Below, one piece after another: positions 47,647-57,792 of a DNA stretch of 64,000 nt. Below the pieces are notes generated by a model, which saw nothing but the letters and a program-made list of their open reading frames with translations, was not told the origin of the DNA and did not search any database. The position numbers and the translations under genes were made by a program. The DNA comes from Hydrogenophaga sp. (GTDB taxonomy: Bacteria; Pseudomonadota; Gammaproteobacteria; Burkholderiales; Burkholderiaceae_C), in assembly GCF_011772445.1 (NCBI RefSeq), contig NZ_WVZN01000026.1, forward strand, positions 58,960 through 122,959, given 5' to 3'. How positions within the stretch are numbered: position 1 is the first letter of the stretch; each line of letters starts with the position of its first letter.

Positions 47647-47649
47647 GTG

Positions 47650-48723
47650 ATGGCGATGCGAAATCTGATTCTGCTGTCCCTCGCGCTGCTCGGTGGCGCG
47701 GCGATGGCGCAAACGAAGCCCTGGCACGAGCTCGGCCGCGAGGCCACACCCGCCGAGATCAAGGCCTGGGACATCGACGTGCGCCCCGACTTCAAGGGCC
47801 TGCCCAAGGGCGCGGGCAGCGTCGCGCTGGGCGAGAAGGTCTGGGAGGCGCAGTGCGCGTCCTGCCACGGCGTGTTCGGTGAATCGAACGAGGTGTTCAC
47901 GCCCATCGTCGGCGGCACCACGCAGGCCGACATCGAACGCGGCCGCGTGAAGAACCTTGAGCCGGGCAACACCTTCCCACAGCGCACCACGCTGATGAAA
48001 GTGGCCACCGTCTCCACGCTGTGGGACTACATCAACCGCGCCATGCCGTGGAACGCGCCCAAGACGCTCAAGACCGAGGAGGTCTACGGCGTGCTCGCGT
48101 ACATCCTGCACCTGGGCGACATCGTGCCGGCGGACTTCACGCTGTCGGACCAGAACATCGCCGAGGTGCAGAAGCGCATGCCCAACCGCAACGGCATGGT
48201 GTTCCACGAGCCGCTCTGGAAGGTGTCCGGCAAGGGCGACGCGAAGAACGTGGCCTGCATGAAGGACTGCCCGACCGAGGCCGAGGTGCGTTCGTCGTTG
48301 CCCGACTTCGCGCGCGACGCGCACGGCAACATCCAGGAACAGAACCGCGTGGTGGGTCCGGTGCGCGGCGCCGACACCACGAAGCCGCCGCTCAAGGGCC
48401 CGGTGGGCAGCGCGCCGCCGCCCGCGCCGGTGGTGGTGGCCGCCGCCCCGGCGGCCGCGCCCGGCGCGGTGGACGTGAAGGCCCTGCTCACCGGCAACGG
48501 GTGCACAGCCTGCCACGGCATCAGCAACAGGATCGTCGGCCCCGGCTTCACCGAGGTCCAGGCCAAACACAAGGGCAAGGCCGACCTGGAGGCCTACCTG
48601 GCCGGCAAGATCAAGTCCGGCGGCAGCGGCGTGTTCGGCGCCGTGCCCATGCCGCCGCAGCCGCAGCTCAAGGACAGCGAGGCCCGGGCCATCGCGCGCT
48701 GGATCGCGGCCGGCCCGCGCTGA
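47650..48723 (+). CDS. soxD: Diheme cytochrome SoxD
   Basis: A 357-residue periplasmic cytochrome c, partner of SoxC. Sec signal ending AMAQT; two haem motifs: CASCHG (near 72) and CTACHG (near 285). An Ala/Pro-rich hinge of about 30 residues joins the two domains. The ATG at 47650 lies three bases after the soxC stop; a second ATG two codons on is equally possible. Confidence 0.93.
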   Translation: MAMRNLILLSLALLGGAAMAQTKPWHELGREATPAEIKAWDIDVRPDFKGLPKGAGSVALGEKVWEAQCASCHGVFGESNEVFTPIVGGTTQADIERGRVKNLEPGNTFPQRTTLMKVATVSTLWDYINRAMPWNAPKTLKTEEVYGVLAYILHLGDIVPADFTLSDQNIAEVQKRMPNRNGMVFHEPLWKVSGKGDAKNVACMKDCPTEAEVRSSLPDFARDAHGNIQEQNRVVGPVRGADTTKPPLKGPVGSAPPPAPVVVAAAPAAAPGAVDVKALLTGNGCTACHGISNRIVGPGFTEVQAKHKGKADLEAYLAGKIKSGGSGVFGAVPMPPQPQLKDSEARAIARWIAAGPR

Positions 48724-48808
48724 GCCAGGGCTTCACGCATACCCCATACCCGTTCCATTTCTCGCTCGCTACACTCGCCCTTCGCCACGCATTTGCACAG
48801 GAGTTCCC

Positions 48809-49264
48809 ATGAACAGCACCCGTCGAGACGCCTTGAAGACCACCGGGGCCTTTGCTGCCCTCGTTTCCATGGGCATCGTCACCCAAAGCCAGGCGAATGC
48901 CGCGCTCGAACGCTCCAGCTTCGAGGGCAAGACCCTGGCCGACGCGCTCAAGGCCGTGGGCGGCACGCCGGCCAACAGCGACCAGGTCACCGTGGTGGCC
49001 CCTGACATCGCCGAGAACGGCGCCGTGGTGCCCATCGGCGCGGCCAGCAAGCTGCCCAACACCACCGAGATCTTCCTCATCGTCGAGAAGAACCCCATGC
49101 CCCTGGCGGCGGCCTTCACCATCCCGGCCGGCACGCTGCCCGAGATCTCCACCCGCCTGAAGATGGGCCAGAGCTCCAACGTCATCGCCGTGGTCAAGGC
49201 CGACGGCAAGCTCTACTCGGCCACGAAAGAAACCAAGGTCACGCTGGGTGGCTGCGGCGGCTGA
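48809..49264 (+). CDS. soxY: Sulfur carrier SoxY
   Basis: A 151-residue carrier subunit. The Tat-type signal STRRDALKTT lies at residues 3-12, and the C-terminal arm ends Gly-Gly-Cys-Gly-Gly, where the Cys carries the sulfur substrate as a swinging arm visited by SoxXA, SoxB and SoxCD. SoxZ follows after 45 bases. The ATG follows an AGGAG Shine-Dalgarno (CAGGAGTTCCC). Confidence 0.96.
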   Translation: MNSTRRDALKTTGAFAALVSMGIVTQSQANAALERSSFEGKTLADALKAVGGTPANSDQVTVVAPDIAENGAVVPIGAASKLPNTTEIFLIVEKNPMPLAAAFTIPAGTLPEISTRLKMGQSSNVIAVVKADGKLYSATKETKVTLGGCGG

Positions 49265-49309
49265 TCGCCACACGCCCCTTTCGAGATTCAACGAACACAG
49301 GAGTCCACC

Positions 49310-49621
49310 ATGGCTGATCCGATGCGCATCCGCGCCGCCGTTGCCGACGGCGAAACCACCGTTCGCGTGCTCATGTCGCACATCATGGAACCCGGCACGC
49401 GCCGCGACGCCGCCGGCGCCCTCATCCCCGGCCACTTCATCACGAACGTCGACTGCACCCACAACGGCAAGACCGTGCTGCAGGCGCAGTTCACCGGCGC
49501 CGTGGCGCAGAACCCGTTCCTGTCCTTCAAGTTCAAGGGCGGCGCCAAGGGCGACAAGATCGTGGTGAAGTGGAGCGACAACAAGGGCGACTCGCGGACC
49601 GACGAAGCAAATATTGCGTAA
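49310..49621 (+). CDS. soxZ: Sulfur-carrier partner SoxZ
   Basis: A 103-residue protein with an Ig-like fold that forms the heterodimer with SoxY. Family segments: GETTVRVLMSHIMEPGTRRD, HFITNVDCTHNGKTVL and the C-terminal KIVVKWSDNKG. No signal peptide; it is exported bound to SoxY. Directly after it is a REP-like element. Confidence 0.95.
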   Translation: MADPMRIRAAVADGETTVRVLMSHIMEPGTRRDAAGALIPGHFITNVDCTHNGKTVLQAQFTGAVAQNPFLSFKFKGGAKGDKIVVKWSDNKGDSRTDEANIA

Positions 49622-49628
49622 CTGGTAA

Positions 49629-49703
49629 CCCCCCGCCGCGCTTCGCGCGACCCCCCAAGGGGGGCGTCACCTGCGGCCCGGCAGAGCCGGTTCCGCGGTG
49701 ACA
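49629..49703. repeat. REP-like intergenic element, copy B (soxZ-soxA)
   Basis: Same hairpin order as copy A with CCCCCCAAGGGGGG in place of CCCCCTCAAGGGGG and one further change. It fills most of the 143 bases between soxZ and soxA. Confidence 0.85.
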
Positions 49704-49764
49704 CTGGATGGACTGCCCCGGCTCACGACGGGTTTCTATAACTAGTAGACGAGGAGATCTCCCC

Positions 49765-50571
49765 ATGACACGACCTGTTTCCCGCGCCATTGCCTTCACG
49801 GCGCTGGTGCTTGGCGTCGCTGCCGCGCACGCGCAGTCGTCCACGGCCGAAGGCATCGCCAAGTACCGCGAGATGCTGCAGGACGGCAACCCCGCCGAAC
49901 TGTTCGAGATGAAGGGCGAGGAGCTCTGGAAACAGAAGCGCGGTCCGAAGAACGTGTCGCTCGAGCAGTGCGACCTGGGCAAGGGCCCCGGCGTCATCAA
50001 GGGCGTGTTCGTGGAGCTGCCGCGCCACTTCAAGGACACCAACCGCGTGCAGGACCTGGAGTCGCGCATCGTCACCTGCATGGAGACGCTGCAGGGCTTC
50101 AAGGCCGAGGACATCGCCAAGACCCCGTTCAACCGCGGCGAGATGGCCAACGTGACGGCCATTGCCACCTACGTGGCCACGGCCTCCAAGGGCATGAAGA
50201 TGGACCTGCCGCAGTCGCATGCGCAGGAAAAGCTCATGTACGAGACCGGCAAGCGGCTGTTCTTCACGCGCGGTGGCACGCACGATTTCTCCTGTGCCTC
50301 CTGCCACGGTTCGGACGACAAGCGCATCCGCCTGCAGGACCTGCCCAACCTCACCAAGAACCCCGGCGATGGCATCGGCTTCGCGGCCTGGCCCGCCTAC
50401 CGCGTGTCCAACGCGCAGATGTGGGGCATGCAACTGCGCCTGAACGACTGCTTCCGCCAGATGCGCTGGCCCGAGCCCAAGTTCGGCAGCGACGCCACCA
50501 TCGCGCTGAGCGTCTACATGGGCGTCAACGCCAAGGGCGCCGAGTCCGCCGTGCCCGCGATCAAGCGCTGA
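49765..50571 (+). CDS. soxA: Cytochrome SoxA, single-haem form
   Basis: A 268-residue periplasmic subunit of the SoxXA complex, which attaches thiosulfate to SoxY. Sec signal ending AHAQS. Only one haem motif is present, CASCHG (near 178); the conserved cysteine that forms the cysteine-persulfide axial ligand is in LNDCFRQMRWPEP (near 233). The N-terminal half has two Cys (EQCDLG, VTCMET) in place of a second haem, typical of the monohaem SoxA type. GAGGAG is eight bases before the ATG. Confidence 0.94.
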   Translation: MTRPVSRAIAFTALVLGVAAAHAQSSTAEGIAKYREMLQDGNPAELFEMKGEELWKQKRGPKNVSLEQCDLGKGPGVIKGVFVELPRHFKDTNRVQDLESRIVTCMETLQGFKAEDIAKTPFNRGEMANVTAIATYVATASKGMKMDLPQSHAQEKLMYETGKRLFFTRGGTHDFSCASCHGSDDKRIRLQDLPNLTKNPGDGIGFAAWPAYRVSNAQMWGMQLRLNDCFRQMRWPEPKFGSDATIALSVYMGVNAKGAESAVPAIKR

Positions 50572-50581
50572 AATGAAAACA

Positions 50582-50656
50582 CCCCCCGCCGCGCTTCGCG
50601 CGTCCCCCCTCAAGGGGGGCGGCGCCTGCGGCCCGGCAAAGCCGGTTCCGCGGCAC
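50582..50656. repeat. REP-like intergenic element, copy C (soxA-soxX)
   Basis: Same order of hairpins as copies A and B. Together with copy B it brackets soxA. Confidence 0.85.
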
Positions 50657-50700
50657 CTCTGGTCGCGTGTGGCGCGAGGCGAATCGACAAAGGAGACGAC

Positions 50701-51345
50701 ATGAACAAGCCCATCCTGACCGTATTTCTGCTGGCGGCGCTGCTGGCCGCCTGCTCCATGCCCCCGTCCCAGGCAGACGTCGAAAAGGCCACAGCCGACA
50801 CGATGAAGAACTCCTTCCAGGCCAAGGGCATCGCCACGCTCGACCGGCTGGACCAGGACCAGGCCAACGCCACCTGCCTGCAGGCCGATCTGTCAGGCAA
50901 GCCCCTGGACGAGAAGCTCGCCAAGGCCGTGGAAGAGGCCAGCACGAAGACCATCAAGTGGCCTTCGGACGGCAAGTTCCTGGGCGACTGGAAAGAGGGC
51001 GAGAAGATCGCCCAGAGCGGTCGCGGCCTGACCTGGACGGACGACGCCAAGCAGGCCAATGGCGGCAACTGCTACAACTGCCACCAGATCAGCAAGGAGG
51101 AAATCTCCTTCGGCACCCTGGGCCCCAGCCTCTACAACTACGGCAAGCTGCGCGGCGTGAGCGACCCGGCCGCCGCCGCGTCCAAACCCATCGTCGAGTA
51201 CACCTGGGGCAAGCTCTACAACGCGCGTGCCTACAACGCCTGCTCGCAGATGCCGCGCGTGGGCCACAAGGGCATCCTCAACGAGACGCAGCTCAAGCAC
51301 GTGATGGCGCTGCTGCTCGACCCGAACTCGCCCGTCAACAAGTGA
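50701..51345 (+). CDS. soxX: Cytochrome SoxX, lipoprotein form
   Basis: A 214-residue monohaem cytochrome. The signal ends LLAAC (Cys18), so this SoxX is a lipoprotein. The haem motif is CYNCHQ (near 121), and a Met in SQMPRVG (near 182) is the probable axial ligand. It is longer than typical SoxX (about 120-150 aa) by an N-terminal region of about 100 residues. ATG follows AAAGGAGACGAC. Confidence 0.93.
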   Translation: MNKPILTVFLLAALLAACSMPPSQADVEKATADTMKNSFQAKGIATLDRLDQDQANATCLQADLSGKPLDEKLAKAVEEASTKTIKWPSDGKFLGDWKEGEKIAQSGRGLTWTDDAKQANGGNCYNCHQISKEEISFGTLGPSLYNYGKLRGVSDPAAAASKPIVEYTWGKLYNARAYNACSQMPRVGHKGILNETQLKHVMALLLDPNSPVNK

Positions 51346-51352
51346 TCCGATG

Positions 51353-51387
51353 AGCCCGGGCGCCCCTTGAGGGCTCCGGGCTTTTTT
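51353..51387 (+). terminator. Intrinsic terminator or attenuator between soxX and soxB
   Basis: Stem AGCCCGG with CCGGGCT, an inner GCCC/GGGC stem, and a T6 tract (51382-51387). It lies in the 84 bases between soxX and soxB, inside the presumed operon, so soxB may have its own promoter or be transcribed at a lower level. Confidence 0.8.
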
Positions 51388-51429
51388 GCGCCTTTGAATA
51401 TCAGTGTTTGCTTCTGAAGAGAGTGCCCC

Positions 51430-53151
51430 ATGAGCCTGAGCCGCCGTGAATTCATGCAACTGCTGGCCGCCGCCAGCGCCGCCGGCATGGCCCTGGACCA
51501 TGGCGACGCCCTGGCCGCCACGGCCGGCGCCAGCGAGCGGCTGTACGACGTGCCCCGCTTCGGCAACGTGAGCTTCCTGCATTTCACCGACTGCCACGCG
51601 CAGCTCACGCCGGTGTACTTCCGGGAGCCCAGCGTGAACCTGGGTGTGGGCGATGCCACCGGCCAGGCGCCGCACCTGGTAGGCGAGGCCCTGCTCAGGC
51701 ACTTCAGGATCCGCCCGGGCACCGCGCAGGCGCACGCCTTCAGCTACCTCGACTTCACGCAGGCCGCCAGGACCTACGGCAAGGTCGGCGGCTTCGCGCA
51801 CCTGGCCACCTTGGTCAAGCGCCTGCGCGCCGAGCGCCCGCACGCCTGGCTGCTCGATGGTGGCGACACCTGGCAGGGCTCGGCCACTTCGCTGTGGACC
51901 AACGCGCAGGACATGGTCGACGCCTGCAAGCGCCTGGGCGTGGACATCATGACCTCGCACTGGGAGCACACCTTCGGCGCCCCGCGCGTGCAGGAGATCG
52001 TCGAGAAGGACCTCAAGGGCCACATCGAATTCCTGGCCCACAACATCAAGACCACCGACTTCGAGGACCTGGTCTTCAAGCCCTACACCCTGCGCGAAAT
52101 GAACGGTGTGCCGGTCGCGGTGATCGGCCAGGCCTTCCCCTACACGCCCATTGCCAACCCGCGCCACATGGTGCCCGACTGGACCTTCGGCATCCAGGAG
52201 GACCACCTGCAGAAGATGGTGGACGAGGTGCGCGGCAAGGGCGCGCAGGTGGTGGTGCTGCTCTCGCACAACGGCATGGACGTGGACCTGAAGCTGGCCT
52301 CGCGCGTCAGCGGCATCGACGCCATCCTGGGCGGCCACACGCACGACGGCATGCCCGCGCCCACGGTGGTGAAGAACCCCGGTGGCCAGACCCTGGTCAC
52401 CAACGCCGGCTCCAACACCAAGTTCCTCGGCGTGCTGGACTTCGACGTGCGCGGCGGCAAGGTGCAGGGCTACCAGTACAAGCTCATGCCCATCTTCGCC
52501 AACCTGCTGCCGGCCGACGCCGGGATGCAGGCCTACATCGACGGCGTGCGCGCGCCGCACAAGGCGAAGCTGGAAGAGAAGCTCGCCGTCACCGAAGACC
52601 TGCTCTACCGCCGCGGCAACTTCAACGGCACCTGGGACCAGGTCATCTGCGACGCGCTGATCGAGGTGAAAGGCGCGGACCTGTGCTTCTCGCCGGGCGT
52701 GCGCTGGGGCACCTCGCTCCTGCCGGGCGACGCCATCACCATGGAGGCGTTGATGGACCAGACGGCCATCACCTACCCGTCGACCACGCTCAACGAATTC
52801 ACCGGCACGCAGATCAAGGAGATCCTGGAAGACGTGGCCGACAACATCTTCAACCCCGACCCGTACTACCAGCAGGGCGGCGACATGGTGCGCGTGGGTG
52901 GGCTGCAGTACAGCATCGCGCCGAAGGAGCGCATGGGCGGGCGCATCCAGAACATGCGCCTGAAGGGCAAGCCCATCGAGGCCGACAAGAAGTACAAGGT
53001 GGCGGGCTGGGCCTCGGTGCAGGAGAACGTGAAAGGCGAGCCGGTGTGGGACGTGGTCGCCACGCACCTGCGCGCGAAGAAGGTGATCAAGGGCGTGAAG
53101 GTGAACGAGCCCACCCTGATCGGCATGAAGGGCAACCCCGGGGCCGCCTGA
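51430..53151 (+). CDS. soxB: Sulfate thiol esterase SoxB
   Basis: A 573-residue dimanganese hydrolase that releases sulfate from SoxY. Tat signal SRREFMQLL. Metal ligands: FTDCHAQL (near 53), LLDGGDTWQG (near 140), SHNGMDVDL (near 278) and GGHTHDGM (near 304). The 5'-nucleotidase-like C-terminal domain starts near 400. It is the last gene of the cluster and ends with no terminator on its own strand before the porin gene. Confidence 0.96.
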   Translation: MSLSRREFMQLLAAASAAGMALDHGDALAATAGASERLYDVPRFGNVSFLHFTDCHAQLTPVYFREPSVNLGVGDATGQAPHLVGEALLRHFRIRPGTAQAHAFSYLDFTQAARTYGKVGGFAHLATLVKRLRAERPHAWLLDGGDTWQGSATSLWTNAQDMVDACKRLGVDIMTSHWEHTFGAPRVQEIVEKDLKGHIEFLAHNIKTTDFEDLVFKPYTLREMNGVPVAVIGQAFPYTPIANPRHMVPDWTFGIQEDHLQKMVDEVRGKGAQVVVLLSHNGMDVDLKLASRVSGIDAILGGHTHDGMPAPTVVKNPGGQTLVTNAGSNTKFLGVLDFDVRGGKVQGYQYKLMPIFANLLPADAGMQAYIDGVRAPHKAKLEEKLAVTEDLLYRRGNFNGTWDQVICDALIEVKGADLCFSPGVRWGTSLLPGDAITMEALMDQTAITYPSTTLNEFTGTQIKEILEDVADNIFNPDPYYQQGGDMVRVGGLQYSIAPKERMGGRIQNMRLKGKPIEADKKYKVAGWASVQENVKGEPVWDVVATHLRAKKVIKGVKVNEPTLIGMKGNPGAA

Positions 53152-54287: not shown

Positions 54288-54526
54288 GAATGGTTTCTCC
54301 GTTGTGGGGTCTCGGGCCCTGGTGGGGCCCGTGCCTCCCGCACCGTGCGGGACGACCGGCGTATTCCACGCCGCGAAGATAACCGTCCGATTACATTCGT
54401 AATGGTTTGCCCTATTTGCAACACGCATCCGCAAGATGTATGGGGGCTTTCACGGCCATGTAGTCGTTGTGTGCGCAACTTTGGTAACCGCGGGCGCGCG
54501 CGGTACGCCGATTGCCGGGCCTCTGG
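54287..54526. other. Divergent intergenic region between porin and ABC fusion gene
   Basis: 240 bases without a supported gene. An AT-rich patch holds ATTAC-ATTC-GTAAT (54390-54403) and TTGCAA (about 54416-54421, minus strand), which might belong to the porin promoter. No promoter could be assigned with confidence to the fusion gene. Confidence 0.4.
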
Positions 54527-57319
54527 ATGGATGGGCACGACACGACGCGGGGCGCGTCCACACGGTCCGCGAAAGGCATTCTGTCGGCGCTTGGGGCGGT
54601 CGCCCGGCGCCACCGCCGCCGCACGCTGCTGGCGATCGCGCTGCTGGTGCTCGCCAAGCTGGCCAGTGTCTGCGTGCCGCTGGTGCTCAAGGAGGTGGTG
54701 GACCGCTTCAGCGCGCCGGCCACGATGGCCACCGACCTGTCGGCTGACGCCTCGGCGGCGTTCCCCGCCGGCACGCAACTCGTGGTGCTGCCGGTCTTCC
54801 TGCTGATCGGCTATGCGGCCTTGCGCTTCTCGGCCACCTTGTTCACCGAGTTGCGCGACCTGTGCTTTGCGCGCGTCACACTGGCCACGGTCGCCGACTT
54901 CTCGCAGAAGGCGCTGGCCCACTTGCACGCCATGGGGCCGCGCTTTCACCTGCAGCGGCAAATGGGCGGCCTGGTGCGCGACGTGGACCGCGGCGCGGTG
55001 GCCCTGGGCTTCCTGCTTAGCGCCTTGCTGTTCACGCTCTTGCCCACGCTGGTGGAGATCGTGGCCGTCATGTTGATCATGGCCGCGGCGTACAGCCCCT
55101 GGTTCATCGCGATCCTGCTGCTCACCTTCCTGGCCTACGCCGTGCACACCGCCCTGATGACGCGCCGGCGCGTGCTGATCCAGCGGCGGGTCAATGCCCT
55201 GGATTCGCGCGCCAACGGCCTGCTGATGGACAGCCTCGTCAACCAGGAGGCGGTGCGAGCGCATGCCCGCGCGCCGCACGAGGTGGCGCGTTATGGCGGC
55301 GCGCGTGGCGCCTGGGTGGAGCGCAGCGTGGACAACCAGTCCGCGCTCTCGGTGCTGCACCTGGGCCAGGCCGCCATCATCGCGGTGGGTGTGGGGGCCG
55401 TCATGCTGCTCGCCGGCCAGGAGACCATGCAGGGCCGGATGACCGTGGGAGATCTGGTGCTCGTCAACGCCTACGTGCTGCAGGTCTGTCTGCCCTTGAA
55501 CGCCCTGGGCATGGTGTTCCGCGAGGCGCGTGACGCCCTGACCAACGCGGAACGGCTCTGGGACCTGTTGCGCGCGCGGCCCGACATCGAGGACAGCCCC
55601 CGCGCGCGTCCGCTGTCGGTGTCGCGCGGCGAGGTCGTCTTCGATCATGTCGACTTTGCCTACGAGCCCGGTCGCCAGATCCTCTGGGACGTGAGCTTGC
55701 GCATCGCACCCGGCCAGACCGTGGCGGTGGTCGGCGGCAGCGGCTCCGGCAAGTCCACGCTGGCGCGCCTTCTGCTGCGCCTGTATGACCCGCAGAAAGG
55801 GCGGGTGCTGGTGGATGGCGAAGACCTCGGCTCGGTCACCCTGGCGAGCCTGCGAGCGGCGGTCGGCATCGTGCCGCAGGACAGCACGCTGTTCAACGAG
55901 ACCATCGCCTACAACATCGCCTACGGACGTCCTGGCGCCACCATGGCCGAGGTGCTGGAAGCCGCGCGCGCCGCGCAGGTGGACGAGTTCATCGCCTCGC
56001 TGCCCCAGCAGTACGACACCGTGGTGGGCGAGCGCGGCATGAAGCTGTCGGGAGGCGAGAAGCAGCGGATCGCCATCGCGCGGGCTTTCCTCAAGAACGC
56101 GCCCATCCTCATCCTCGACGAGGCCACCTCCGCGCTGGACACGCGCTCGGAGCGCGCCATCCAGGGCCAGCTCGATCGCCTGTCGGCGGACCGCACCACG
56201 CTGGTCATCGCGCACCGGCTCTCCACCATCGTGGACGCCGACCGCATCCTCGTGATGGACCGAGGGCGCATCGTCGAACAGGGGCGCCACGAACAGCTCA
56301 TCGAACTGGGCGGCCTGTACGCGCAACTGTGGGATCTGCAGCGCCAGAAGCAGGCCTTCGACCGGCTGGAGCGGCAACTGGCTCGCCAGCCCGTCAACCT
56401 CGCCGCGCTGCTGGCGAGCGTGATCGATGGCCTGAGGCCGCGCCTGGACGCGCGCGCCATCCAGCTTTACACGGTGATCGATCCCGAGGGCGCACGCGTG
56501 CTGGGCGATCCCGGCGTGCTATCGCAGGTGATGTGGGACCTCGGCCAGCACGCGGTGGAGTCGACGCCGCCGGGCGGCCGGGTGGAGCTGCGGCTCGAGC
56601 GGCATCAGGAGCGCGTGCGCCTCACCGTGGCGGATGGCCGCCATGACGGCAACGGCGCAACGCCGACCGTGTCCCCCGAGGCCCCGGCCATGGACCCGCT
56701 GGCCCTGCGCTCCGCGATCGAGCGCCAGGGCGGGCAATTCAACCTCGTGGCGGCGACCTCGGTGCAGGGCATGCGCTACCTCGTCGACCTGCCGCTGCAT
56801 GCCCTCGCCGCCCCGCCGCCGGCCGACGACCGGCCCCCCGCCGAAGCAGGGCAGGACCAGGTCCACCGCCTGGCCGGTCTGCTCGTGATGGTCGTGGACG
56901 ACAAGCCGATGGCGCGCGAGGCGCTGGAGGCCGTGCTGAAAGCCGCGGGGGCGGCCACCGTCGGCTTCGGCGGCGGGGAGCCGGCGCTGCGCTGGATCGA
57001 GGACCACCCCGCGCCGCAGTGGCCGCGCGTGCTGGTGTGCGACATCGCGCTGGAGGAAGAGGACGGCTTTTCCGTCGTGCGGCGCCTGCGCCAGATCGAG
57101 ACCCGGCACGAGGCCCCGCTGGATCAGCGCATCTCGGCGGTGGCGGTGACCGGCGGTGCCCAGCCCGAACACCGCATCCGCGCGCTCATGGCGGGTTTCC
57201 AGATGGTCCTGAGCAAACCCGTGGCGCCCGACGAACTGGTGGCCACCGTGCTCGCCCTCGCGACCCGCCCCGGCGCCGGCGCAGGCGCCCTCTCTGTTCA
57301 TGAAGGAAAGCCCGTATGA
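54527..57319 (+). CDS. ABC exporter fused to histidine-kinase-like ATPase and receiver domains
   Basis: A 930-residue fusion protein. Residues about 25-320 are an ABC exporter membrane domain (six helices, as in HMT1/Atm1-type), and about 360-600 the nucleotide-binding domain with GGSGSGKST (Walker A, near 402), LSGGEKQ (near 506), LILDEATSALD and AHRLST. Next (about 620-770) comes a region like the HATPase of histidine kinases (LGDPGVLSQVMWDLGQHAVE, then STPPGGRVELRL and IERQGGQF), but the N-box Asn and the DxGxG are lost. The end (about 784-915) is a receiver domain: VVDD, phospho-site CDIAL, VTGG and SKPV. A TTG at 54512 is an alternative start. The next gene overlaps as ATGA. Confidence 0.85.
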   Translation: MDGHDTTRGASTRSAKGILSALGAVARRHRRRTLLAIALLVLAKLASVCVPLVLKEVVDRFSAPATMATDLSADASAAFPAGTQLVVLPVFLLIGYAALRFSATLFTELRDLCFARVTLATVADFSQKALAHLHAMGPRFHLQRQMGGLVRDVDRGAVALGFLLSALLFTLLPTLVEIVAVMLIMAAAYSPWFIAILLLTFLAYAVHTALMTRRRVLIQRRVNALDSRANGLLMDSLVNQEAVRAHARAPHEVARYGGARGAWVERSVDNQSALSVLHLGQAAIIAVGVGAVMLLAGQETMQGRMTVGDLVLVNAYVLQVCLPLNALGMVFREARDALTNAERLWDLLRARPDIEDSPRARPLSVSRGEVVFDHVDFAYEPGRQILWDVSLRIAPGQTVAVVGGSGSGKSTLARLLLRLYDPQKGRVLVDGEDLGSVTLASLRAAVGIVPQDSTLFNETIAYNIAYGRPGATMAEVLEAARAAQVDEFIASLPQQYDTVVGERGMKLSGGEKQRIAIARAFLKNAPILILDEATSALDTRSERAIQGQLDRLSADRTTLVIAHRLSTIVDADRILVMDRGRIVEQGRHEQLIELGGLYAQLWDLQRQKQAFDRLERQLARQPVNLAALLASVIDGLRPRLDARAIQLYTVIDPEGARVLGDPGVLSQVMWDLGQHAVESTPPGGRVELRLERHQERVRLTVADGRHDGNGATPTVSPEAPAMDPLALRSAIERQGGQFNLVAATSVQGMRYLVDLPLHALAAPPPADDRPPAEAGQDQVHRLAGLLVMVVDDKPMAREALEAVLKAAGAATVGFGGGEPALRWIEDHPAPQWPRVLVCDIALEEEDGFSVVRRLRQIETRHEAPLDQRISAVAVTGGAQPEHRIRALMAGFQMVLSKPVAPDELVATVLALATRPGAGAGALSVHEGKPV

Positions 57320-57792
57320 AAAGCCGCAGCCGGTTCATCGACGAAGAGGCCGCCCGCCTGGCCGTGTCGCTCGCGCGCCCCGCCATCGAGGCGGCGCTGC
57401 GCGACGCCGCCGTCAGCGGGCAGCACGTGCTGCACCTGGTGGTGCTGGACCCCGCGTCGCCGCCGGGCGCCTGCCGCTTCGAGGAGGCGCTGCTGTACGA
57501 GCAGACCCTCGGCCGACAGGACCGCACCACCTGGGACGCCGACTACGCCACCTACGCGCGCGACAAGGCCGCGCTGAGCTGGCGCCACGGCATGGACAGC
57601 CGCCGCCTGCAACTGCTCGAGCCGCACCGGCTGGGCGCCGAAGACCACCTGGTGTGGGGCGGGGTGTGCCTCGACGGCATCGTCGTCGCGGCGAGTGGCG
57701 CCATGCCGCAGTGGGACGAGACCTTCTCGTTCTGGGTGGCGGGCGCCCTGCGCGCGATCGCGTACGAAAGGGCGCTGTCGCAAGCGACGTAG
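57316..57792 (+). CDS. Small protein, GlcG/HbpS-like by pattern, coupled to the ABC-receiver fusion
   Basis: A 158-residue protein of unknown function. A faint GlcG/HbpS pattern is visible: an amphipathic N-terminal helix, a VVLDPASPPGACRFEEA strand-turn near 43, the sequence YARDKAALSWRHGMDSRRL near 79, and a C-terminal GGVCLDGIVVAASGA followed by PQWDETFSFWVAGALRAIA. HbpS proteins are haem- and redox-linked sensors for two-component systems, which would suit the receiver-carrying partner, but the resemblance is weak. No signal peptide. It overlaps the fusion gene by four bases and ends before a perfect hairpin. Confidence 0.6.
   Translation: MKSRSRFIDEEAARLAVSLARPAIEAALRDAAVSGQHVLHLVVLDPASPPGACRFEEALLYEQTLGRQDRTTWDADYATYARDKAALSWRHGMDSRRLQLLEPHRLGAEDHLVWGGVCLDGIVVAASGAMPQWDETFSFWVAGALRAIAYERALSQAT

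Follow-up and report, generated by a model that had tools for sequence, protein, structure and literature searches.

Introduction

Two-component signalling is best known for its action through transcription. In hybrid histidine kinases such as ShkA, a kinase catalytic domain is followed by a receiver. A quite different class of proteins, the ATP-binding cassette (ABC) exporters of the Atm1/ABCB7/ABCB6 type, among them NaAtm1, yeast Atm1, AtAtm3 and PexA, are half-transporters that handle glutathione derivatives, according to the available parts of two reports (PMC6424863, PMC9000953). Here we describe a protein from a Hydrogenophaga species, encoded in a 64,000-nucleotide stretch of contig NZ_WVZN01000026.1 (positions 58,960 to 122,959; hereafter the window), that has features of both. 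It shares with the Atm1-type exporters the transmembrane domain and the half-transporter layout, but adds to them a C-terminal tail made of a degenerate kinase catalytic domain, or pseudo-ATPase, and a receiver. This tail follows hybrid histidine kinases in its domain order and, domain by domain, in its fold, but differs in having neither a HisKA or phosphoacceptor His domain nor the ATP-binding boxes, and in having an ABC exporter as its input part. The initial annotation of the window, made from its sequence, knew of no characterised example, and among the matches listed by a search of titles and abstracts in the open-licence literature we likewise found no description of a receiver fused to an ABC exporter.

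Results

An exporter half, a pseudo-ATPase and a receiver in one chain

The translation of nucleotides 54527-57319 on the + strand is free of stops over 930 residues (Table 1). Pfam scores exceed the cut-offs for ABC_membrane (87 bits against 28), ABC_tran (122.5 against 25) and Response_reg (58.1 against 30.2), and Walker A, Q-loop, signature, Walker B and H-loop are all found, bearing out the complete exporter half read in this frame by the initial annotation. The kinase-like region gives a partial HATPase_c match only (residues 660-717, 19.7 bits, under the cut-off of 26.4), and HisKA or another phosphoacceptor His domain has no Pfam match in the protein up to E = 1. The absence of the N-box Asn and of DxGxG from this region had been noted before and holds: D671 and H675 occupy the N-box place, and none of the N, G1 and G2 patterns is found. 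The receiver was also read correctly, with its Asp pair (D791, D792), phospho-Asp (D839), Thr (T875) and Lys (K897) all present.

An AlphaFold2 model of residues 599-930 (48 tails; predicted local distance difference test [pLDDT] 87, predicted template modelling score 0.63) consists of a kinase-type ATPase fold and then a receiver. In a Foldseek search of the PDB with this model the hybrid kinase ShkA came first by E-value, followed by the cores of HK853, CusS, DivL and RetS and by receivers. The receiver overlays are tight (target template modelling score, TM, about 0.9; root-mean-square deviation, rmsd, about 2), and those of the kinase catalytic domain are looser (target TM up to 0.7).

A conserved family in the Burkholderiales

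The same domain order recurs in one open frame in 55 further copies, 53 of them distinct (54 distinct proteins with the window's), so the joining of exporter, decayed ATPase and receiver in a single chain is a conserved arrangement. A sequencing or assembly error fusing separate genes, a concern of the initial annotation, is therefore excluded, as is chance: the 55 copies include plasmid records marked complete, and nothing was found in favour of such an error. Forty-three of the copies come from a scan of one genome per species over 84,980 species, which kept 80 loci of 170 relatives; it was keyed on a single peptide pattern at the receiver end and is thus not exhaustive. One open frame matches both ABC exporter and tail in 43 of the 80 loci, and the other 37 have no such frame. 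Six copies come from an order-wide search (their initial locus pieces start within the gene, and longer stretches give a longer match) and six from plasmid records. By tblastn, at least seven plasmid records, all from Burkholderiaceae genera, cover at least 80% of the query in one place at 46-51% identity.

Named hosts of the family are confined to Burkholderiales (Azohydromonas, Paraburkholderia, Caballeronia, Burkholderia, Cupriavidus, Ralstonia and Castellaniella). Of 399 genomes sampled from the order, 7 have the tailed exporter; among 398 genomes drawn across the phylum, only the window's own and two more, both from that order, match at E 1e-45. In 35 genomes of the window's own genus, no match to the tail goes below E 7e-19. 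One copy, in Burkholderia cenocepacia (L043), is disrupted by a frame change.

The 55 copies are 52-64% identical to the window protein over the ABC core and 31-44% over the tail. Among the 54 distinct proteins, mean pairwise identity is 66% for the transmembrane domain and 77% for the nucleotide-binding domain, and within the tail it is higher in the receiver (52%) than in the pseudo-ATPase (41%). The ABC motifs are intact throughout (56/56 rows, 54/54 distinct proteins). Response_reg is matched in all 53 tails searched with Pfam, and HATPase_c in nine of the 53 at E 0.01. The N-box and the G2 box are each found in 0 of 54 exporters against 68 of 70 hybrid kinases, and DxGxG in one exporter (near the N-box, off the G1 place) against 70 of 70 kinases; by these motif counts the ATP-binding boxes of kinases are lost from the exporter tails. 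In the receiver, D791, D792 and D839 are kept in 51 of 54 proteins, and K897 and a Thr or Ser at 875 in all 54. The three exceptions (L046, L047, L050) are all from Azohydromonas and have Glu-Pro for Asp-Asp and Glu in place of the phospho-Asp.

A quick, midpoint-rooted tree of 90 tails (20 of 56 exporter tails and 70 of 74 kinases) places the 20 exporter tails on one long separate branch with no kinase among them (SH-aLRT, an approximate likelihood ratio test, 100), and this single branch suggests a single fusion event. The best relative of the tail in its own genome is a hybrid kinase encoded beside glycan genes (34% identity, E 8e-20); recent capture of the tail from that kinase was considered and rejected, given the separation of the exporter tails in the tree.

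An Atm1-type exporter with an altered pocket

The type of the exporter, its pocket, its small neighbour and its genomic associations go beyond what the initial annotation had covered. With the transmembrane domain alone as query, every PDB sequence matched at E 1e-12 or better (19 of 19) is of Atm1, ABCB7, ABCB25 or ABCB6 type, and by this measure the exporter is Atm1/ABCB7-like. The top NCBIfam match is the lipid A flippase family MsbA_lipidA (TIGR02203, residues 24-606), but its 404.4 bits fall far below the curated cut-off of 602, and with no MsbA among the PDB relatives of the transmembrane domain that identity was dropped.

According to the available part of the report on Rhodobacter capsulatus PexA, glutathione is contacted by the conserved residues Arg212, Arg216, Asn275 and Arg329 (PMC6424863). 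These map with identical spacing to residues 215, 219, 278 and 332 of the window protein. R215 and R332 are retained in all 54 distinct proteins, and position 219 is Gln and 278 His in all 54; two of the four contacts named there are thus replaced, with Gln in place of the second Arg and His in place of the Asn, and the full set is not present. The stretch PLNFLGSVYR of transmembrane helix 6 (TM6), given for AtAtm3 in the accessible part of its report (PMC9000953), has its counterpart in PLNALGMVFR, of which P, L, N, L, G and R are invariant across the family. The pocket therefore reads as Atm1-like but with one and the same alteration in every family member, in which it differs from the Atm1/ABCB7/ABCB6 exporters, and the alteration may signal a substrate shift relative to them. 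The genome also encodes an ordinary tail-less homologue (a 621-residue frame, 44-46% identical), in which the pocket Arg, Arg and Asn are kept and the Asn of the TM6 motif is replaced by Gly.

Association with a glycan gene set

In annotated relatives the exporter gene lies amid genes for glycosyltransferases, heptosyltransferase-type GT9 enzymes, a HAD-family phosphatase and a carbamoyltransferase, in some also near a UDP-glucuronate decarboxylase or a PIG-L deacetylase. No other flippase or polymerase is annotated among the glycan genes of the annotated stretches; in Burkholderia multivorans an uptake-type ABC system lies upstream of them. Among the matches listed by a search of titles and abstracts in the open-licence literature, none describes such a heptose/carbamoyl-type set. 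Among 42 loci longer than 15 kb, of which three supplied the query proteins and many are closely related, a carbamoyltransferase is encoded in the flanks of 37 and a HAD phosphatase in those of 36. The remaining five loci fall in four genomes, all with a carbamoyltransferase (7/7 genomes searched); the idea that the Azohydromonas loci stand apart from glycan genes was rejected, as a carbamoyltransferase is present in these genomes. Caballeronia temeraria (L068, L078) has two tailed exporters and two carbamoyltransferases in one genome.

In the window's genome the glycan set occupies two stretches on another contig. These also encode a SIS-domain protein, which we take to be of the heptose pathway type, one protein related to sigma-54-dependent regulators, and two in which a kinase ATPase domain occurs together with a receiver. 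Across the 399 genomes of the order, a carbamoyltransferase of at least 59% identity occurs in 11: all seven with the exporter and four of the other 392 (Fisher test, 1e-12). The dividing line was chosen after the list had been viewed; 31 genomes match at E 1e-100, and the 20 excluded are 43-48% identical. On the evidence of gene content, the exporter accompanies the glycan set, and the set can exist without the exporter. Whole or partial glycan sets were seen at L177, L178, L179 and L180, in genomes without a tailed exporter.

The small neighbour, linked regulators and surroundings of the window gene

The gene that follows the exporter encodes a small protein with no Pfam match up to E 1; weak QslA matches appear in 5 of 22 of its relatives. 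Its AlphaFold2 model (pLDDT 91.4) resembles NahX, EfgA, the DUF336 protein ORFY and heme-binding PduOC in Foldseek (best ten matches, E 8.5e-5 to 1e-3, TM about 0.5-0.67), so that it shares the fold of the EfgA/NahX/HbpS/DUF336 proteins but not their sequence families. EfgA is a formaldehyde sensor. Homologues 48-54% identical are found in 28 other loci, 27 of these with an intact exporter. In the 399 genomes the small protein occurs in the same seven as the exporter and in one more (G421), with a 41-residue match in G074; in three genomes (G359, G132, G386) its gene is located apart from the exporter. Ten further exporter genomes whose loci have no such gene in the flanks yielded it once, in Castellaniella (L055).

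Relatives of sigma-54-dependent regulators occur in 9 of the 42 loci longer than 15 kb, and linked regulators vary from lineage to lineage. With scoring weights set by hand from a consensus, a sigma-54-like score of 0.85, that of the weak match upstream of the window gene, is reached by 23 of 44 exporter upstream stretches (related rows) against 4.6% of mononucleotide shuffles; the window's site would place the transcript start at the ATG. Sites scoring at least 0.90 number four in the two glycan stretches of the genome (17 kb) and one in the 64-kb window. Two opposed matches (6066 +, 6061 -) lie within 6046-6081 of L157, near the first glycosyltransferase start of one of these glycan stretches.

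Positions 47647-53151 (+) of the window hold thiosulfate-oxidation sox genes, encoding by Pfam a cytochrome c, SoxY, SoxZ and a SoxA-type cytochrome, together with a protein with a 5'-nucleotidase C-terminal domain that, by its place, is presumably SoxB.

Table 1. Features of the exporter gene and its immediate neighbours in the window
Feature	Position	Strand	Details
Weak sigma-54-like promoter match	54501..54516	+	Borderline score 0.85; weights set by hand from a consensus
Receiver-tailed Atm1-type ABC half-exporter, 930 aa	54527..57319	+	ATG start; frame open also from TTG 54512
Transmembrane domain, ABC_membrane residues 34-320, Atm1/ABCB7/ABCB6-like	54626..55486	+	Pfam, PDB search; pocket R215, Q219, H278, R332
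Nucleotide-binding domain, ABC_tran match residues 388-535, motifs intact	55688..56131	+	Pfam, motif reading
Pseudo-ATPase, histidine-kinase catalytic fold without N-box, G1 and G2; residues about 627-765	56405..56821	+	Pfam, motifs, model
Receiver domain, residues 787-908; phospho-Asp D839, D791/D792, T875, K897	56885..57250	+	Pfam, motifs, model
Accessory protein, 158 aa, EfgA/HbpS/DUF336-like fold	57316..57792	+	Start overlaps exporter stop codon

Discussion

We give about an even chance to the reading that this protein is an Atm1-type exporter gated by its receiver and working for a glycan gene set of heptose/carbamoyl type. The wider proposal is more tentative, at somewhat under even chances: a conserved family of ABC exporters whose transport is switched directly when an Asp of the receiver in their own chain is phosphorylated, the dead kinase domain transmitting the signal, so that export of a cell-envelope glycan component would come under post-translational two-component control, and with the switch fixed in Azohydromonas by the Asp-to-Glu change. 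The initial annotation had already suggested a phosphorylation-gated exporter, and the near-invariant receiver site (51/54) fits that idea; phosphorylation and gating themselves we infer.

In the mechanism that we envisage, the exporter would work as a homodimer, as its half-transporter layout suggests, and its C-terminus would be what remains of a hybrid histidine kinase, the catalytic domain without its ATP site serving as a spacer or docking platform for a working receiver. Since such a receiver sits on a dead kinase domain, an outside phosphodonor would be needed, and D839 may be phosphorylated in trans by a separate histidine kinase of the cell or by a small phosphodonor. The resulting change in shape could be relayed through the pseudo-ATPase, which directly follows the nucleotide-binding domain, and would allow or prevent closure of the nucleotide-binding domains, thereby setting transport. 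Judged by its enzymes, the glycan set probably builds a heptose-containing, carbamoylated glycan, and the cargo would most likely be an intermediate, product or by-product of this pathway, moved outward. The small protein with the EfgA/HbpS fold, present in many lineages including that of the window, may sense a ligand and is dispensable, being absent from others.

Several observations weigh against this reading. The described Atm1-type exporters handle glutathione derivatives, and two of the four glutathione contacts, R215 and R332, remain here. Overlaid as a whole, the tail fits ShkA poorly (TM 0.34/0.25, rmsd 15.8), the matches holding per domain. The three Azohydromonas proteins have lost the phospho-Asp to Glu and retain the transporter, which fits a switch locked in one state and equally a receiver released from its role. 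The chief weakness is that no single kinase is linked throughout: a kinase-type open reading frame occurs in the flanks of just 19 of 48 loci, and one constant linked kinase was rejected on that ground. The neighbours of the exporter in the window (porin, sox genes, tRNA, FBPase) are not glycan genes. Four of the 399 genomes have the close carbamoyltransferase without a tailed exporter, three of them holding most of the glycosyltransferase set and one (G175) a smaller part, so the set can do without the exporter, and the Fisher values overstate independence, because the genomes in which the two co-occur are related. Finally, the small protein is found in none of nine exporter-bearing genomes of Paraburkholderia (three) and Caballeronia (six). 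The seven of seven genomes in the order-wide search had suggested a fixed partner; these nine reject that idea and make the protein an accessory. Its absence leaves our odds on the readings unaffected, since these are based on exporter and glycan set.

Among the alternatives, the one to which we give most room, while still holding it unlikely, is an Atm1-type exporter of glutathione-, persulfide- or metal-thiol compounds that carries a regulatory tail and shares only a stress programme with the glycan genes. The transmembrane domain nearest to Atm1/ABCB7, the retained PLN-LG-R motif of TM6 with R215 and R332, the genes for Mn-catalase (10/42), ferritin-like proteins (9/42) and hemerythrin (11/42) near exporter relatives in the loci longer than 15 kb, and the sox genes upstream in the window all speak for it. 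Yet the two replaced contacts, of the four named in the available part of PMC6424863, are replaced in all 54 proteins, the tail-less homologue that keeps both Args and the Asn supplies the genome with an ordinary Atm1-like protein besides, and the commonest neighbour is the carbamoyltransferase rather than a redox gene.

Causality might also run the other way. Bce-type transporters act in a flux-sensing manner, through complexes. By analogy, the exporter could be a sensor whose transport state governs the uptake or drain of phosphate by the receiver; it would then serve the kinases and sigma-54 response regulators of the gene set as a phosphate sink that senses flux. The almost invariant receiver site suits such a role, as do the relatives of sigma-54-dependent regulators, found also with hybrid kinases in the genome's own glycan stretch, but the regulators vary among lineages, the Asp-to-Glu exporters would be dead sinks, and the complexes of Bce systems are a different arrangement; we regard this explanation as improbable. 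Less probable again, indeed very doubtful, is a tail that is a vestige, or a docking piece tethering the exporter to a kinase or to glycosyltransferases, with phosphorylation having no effect on transport. The family-wide decay of the pseudo-ATPase and the Azohydromonas proteins without the Asp would agree with it, but the two Asp pair residues, the phospho-Asp, the Thr/Ser and the Lys are kept in 51 of 54 proteins despite drift of the whole tail, and a mere tether would not need them.

If a receiver-gated exporter is the right reading, a receiver built into the transporter would switch membrane transport directly, quickly and post-translationally, and a pseudo-kinase domain may have been put to use as a mechanical part. 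The family offers a natural comparison at the switch residue, Asp against Glu. It also ties to a glycan pathway an Atm1-type fold that the available parts of the literature associate with glutathione compounds (PMC6424863, PMC9000953).

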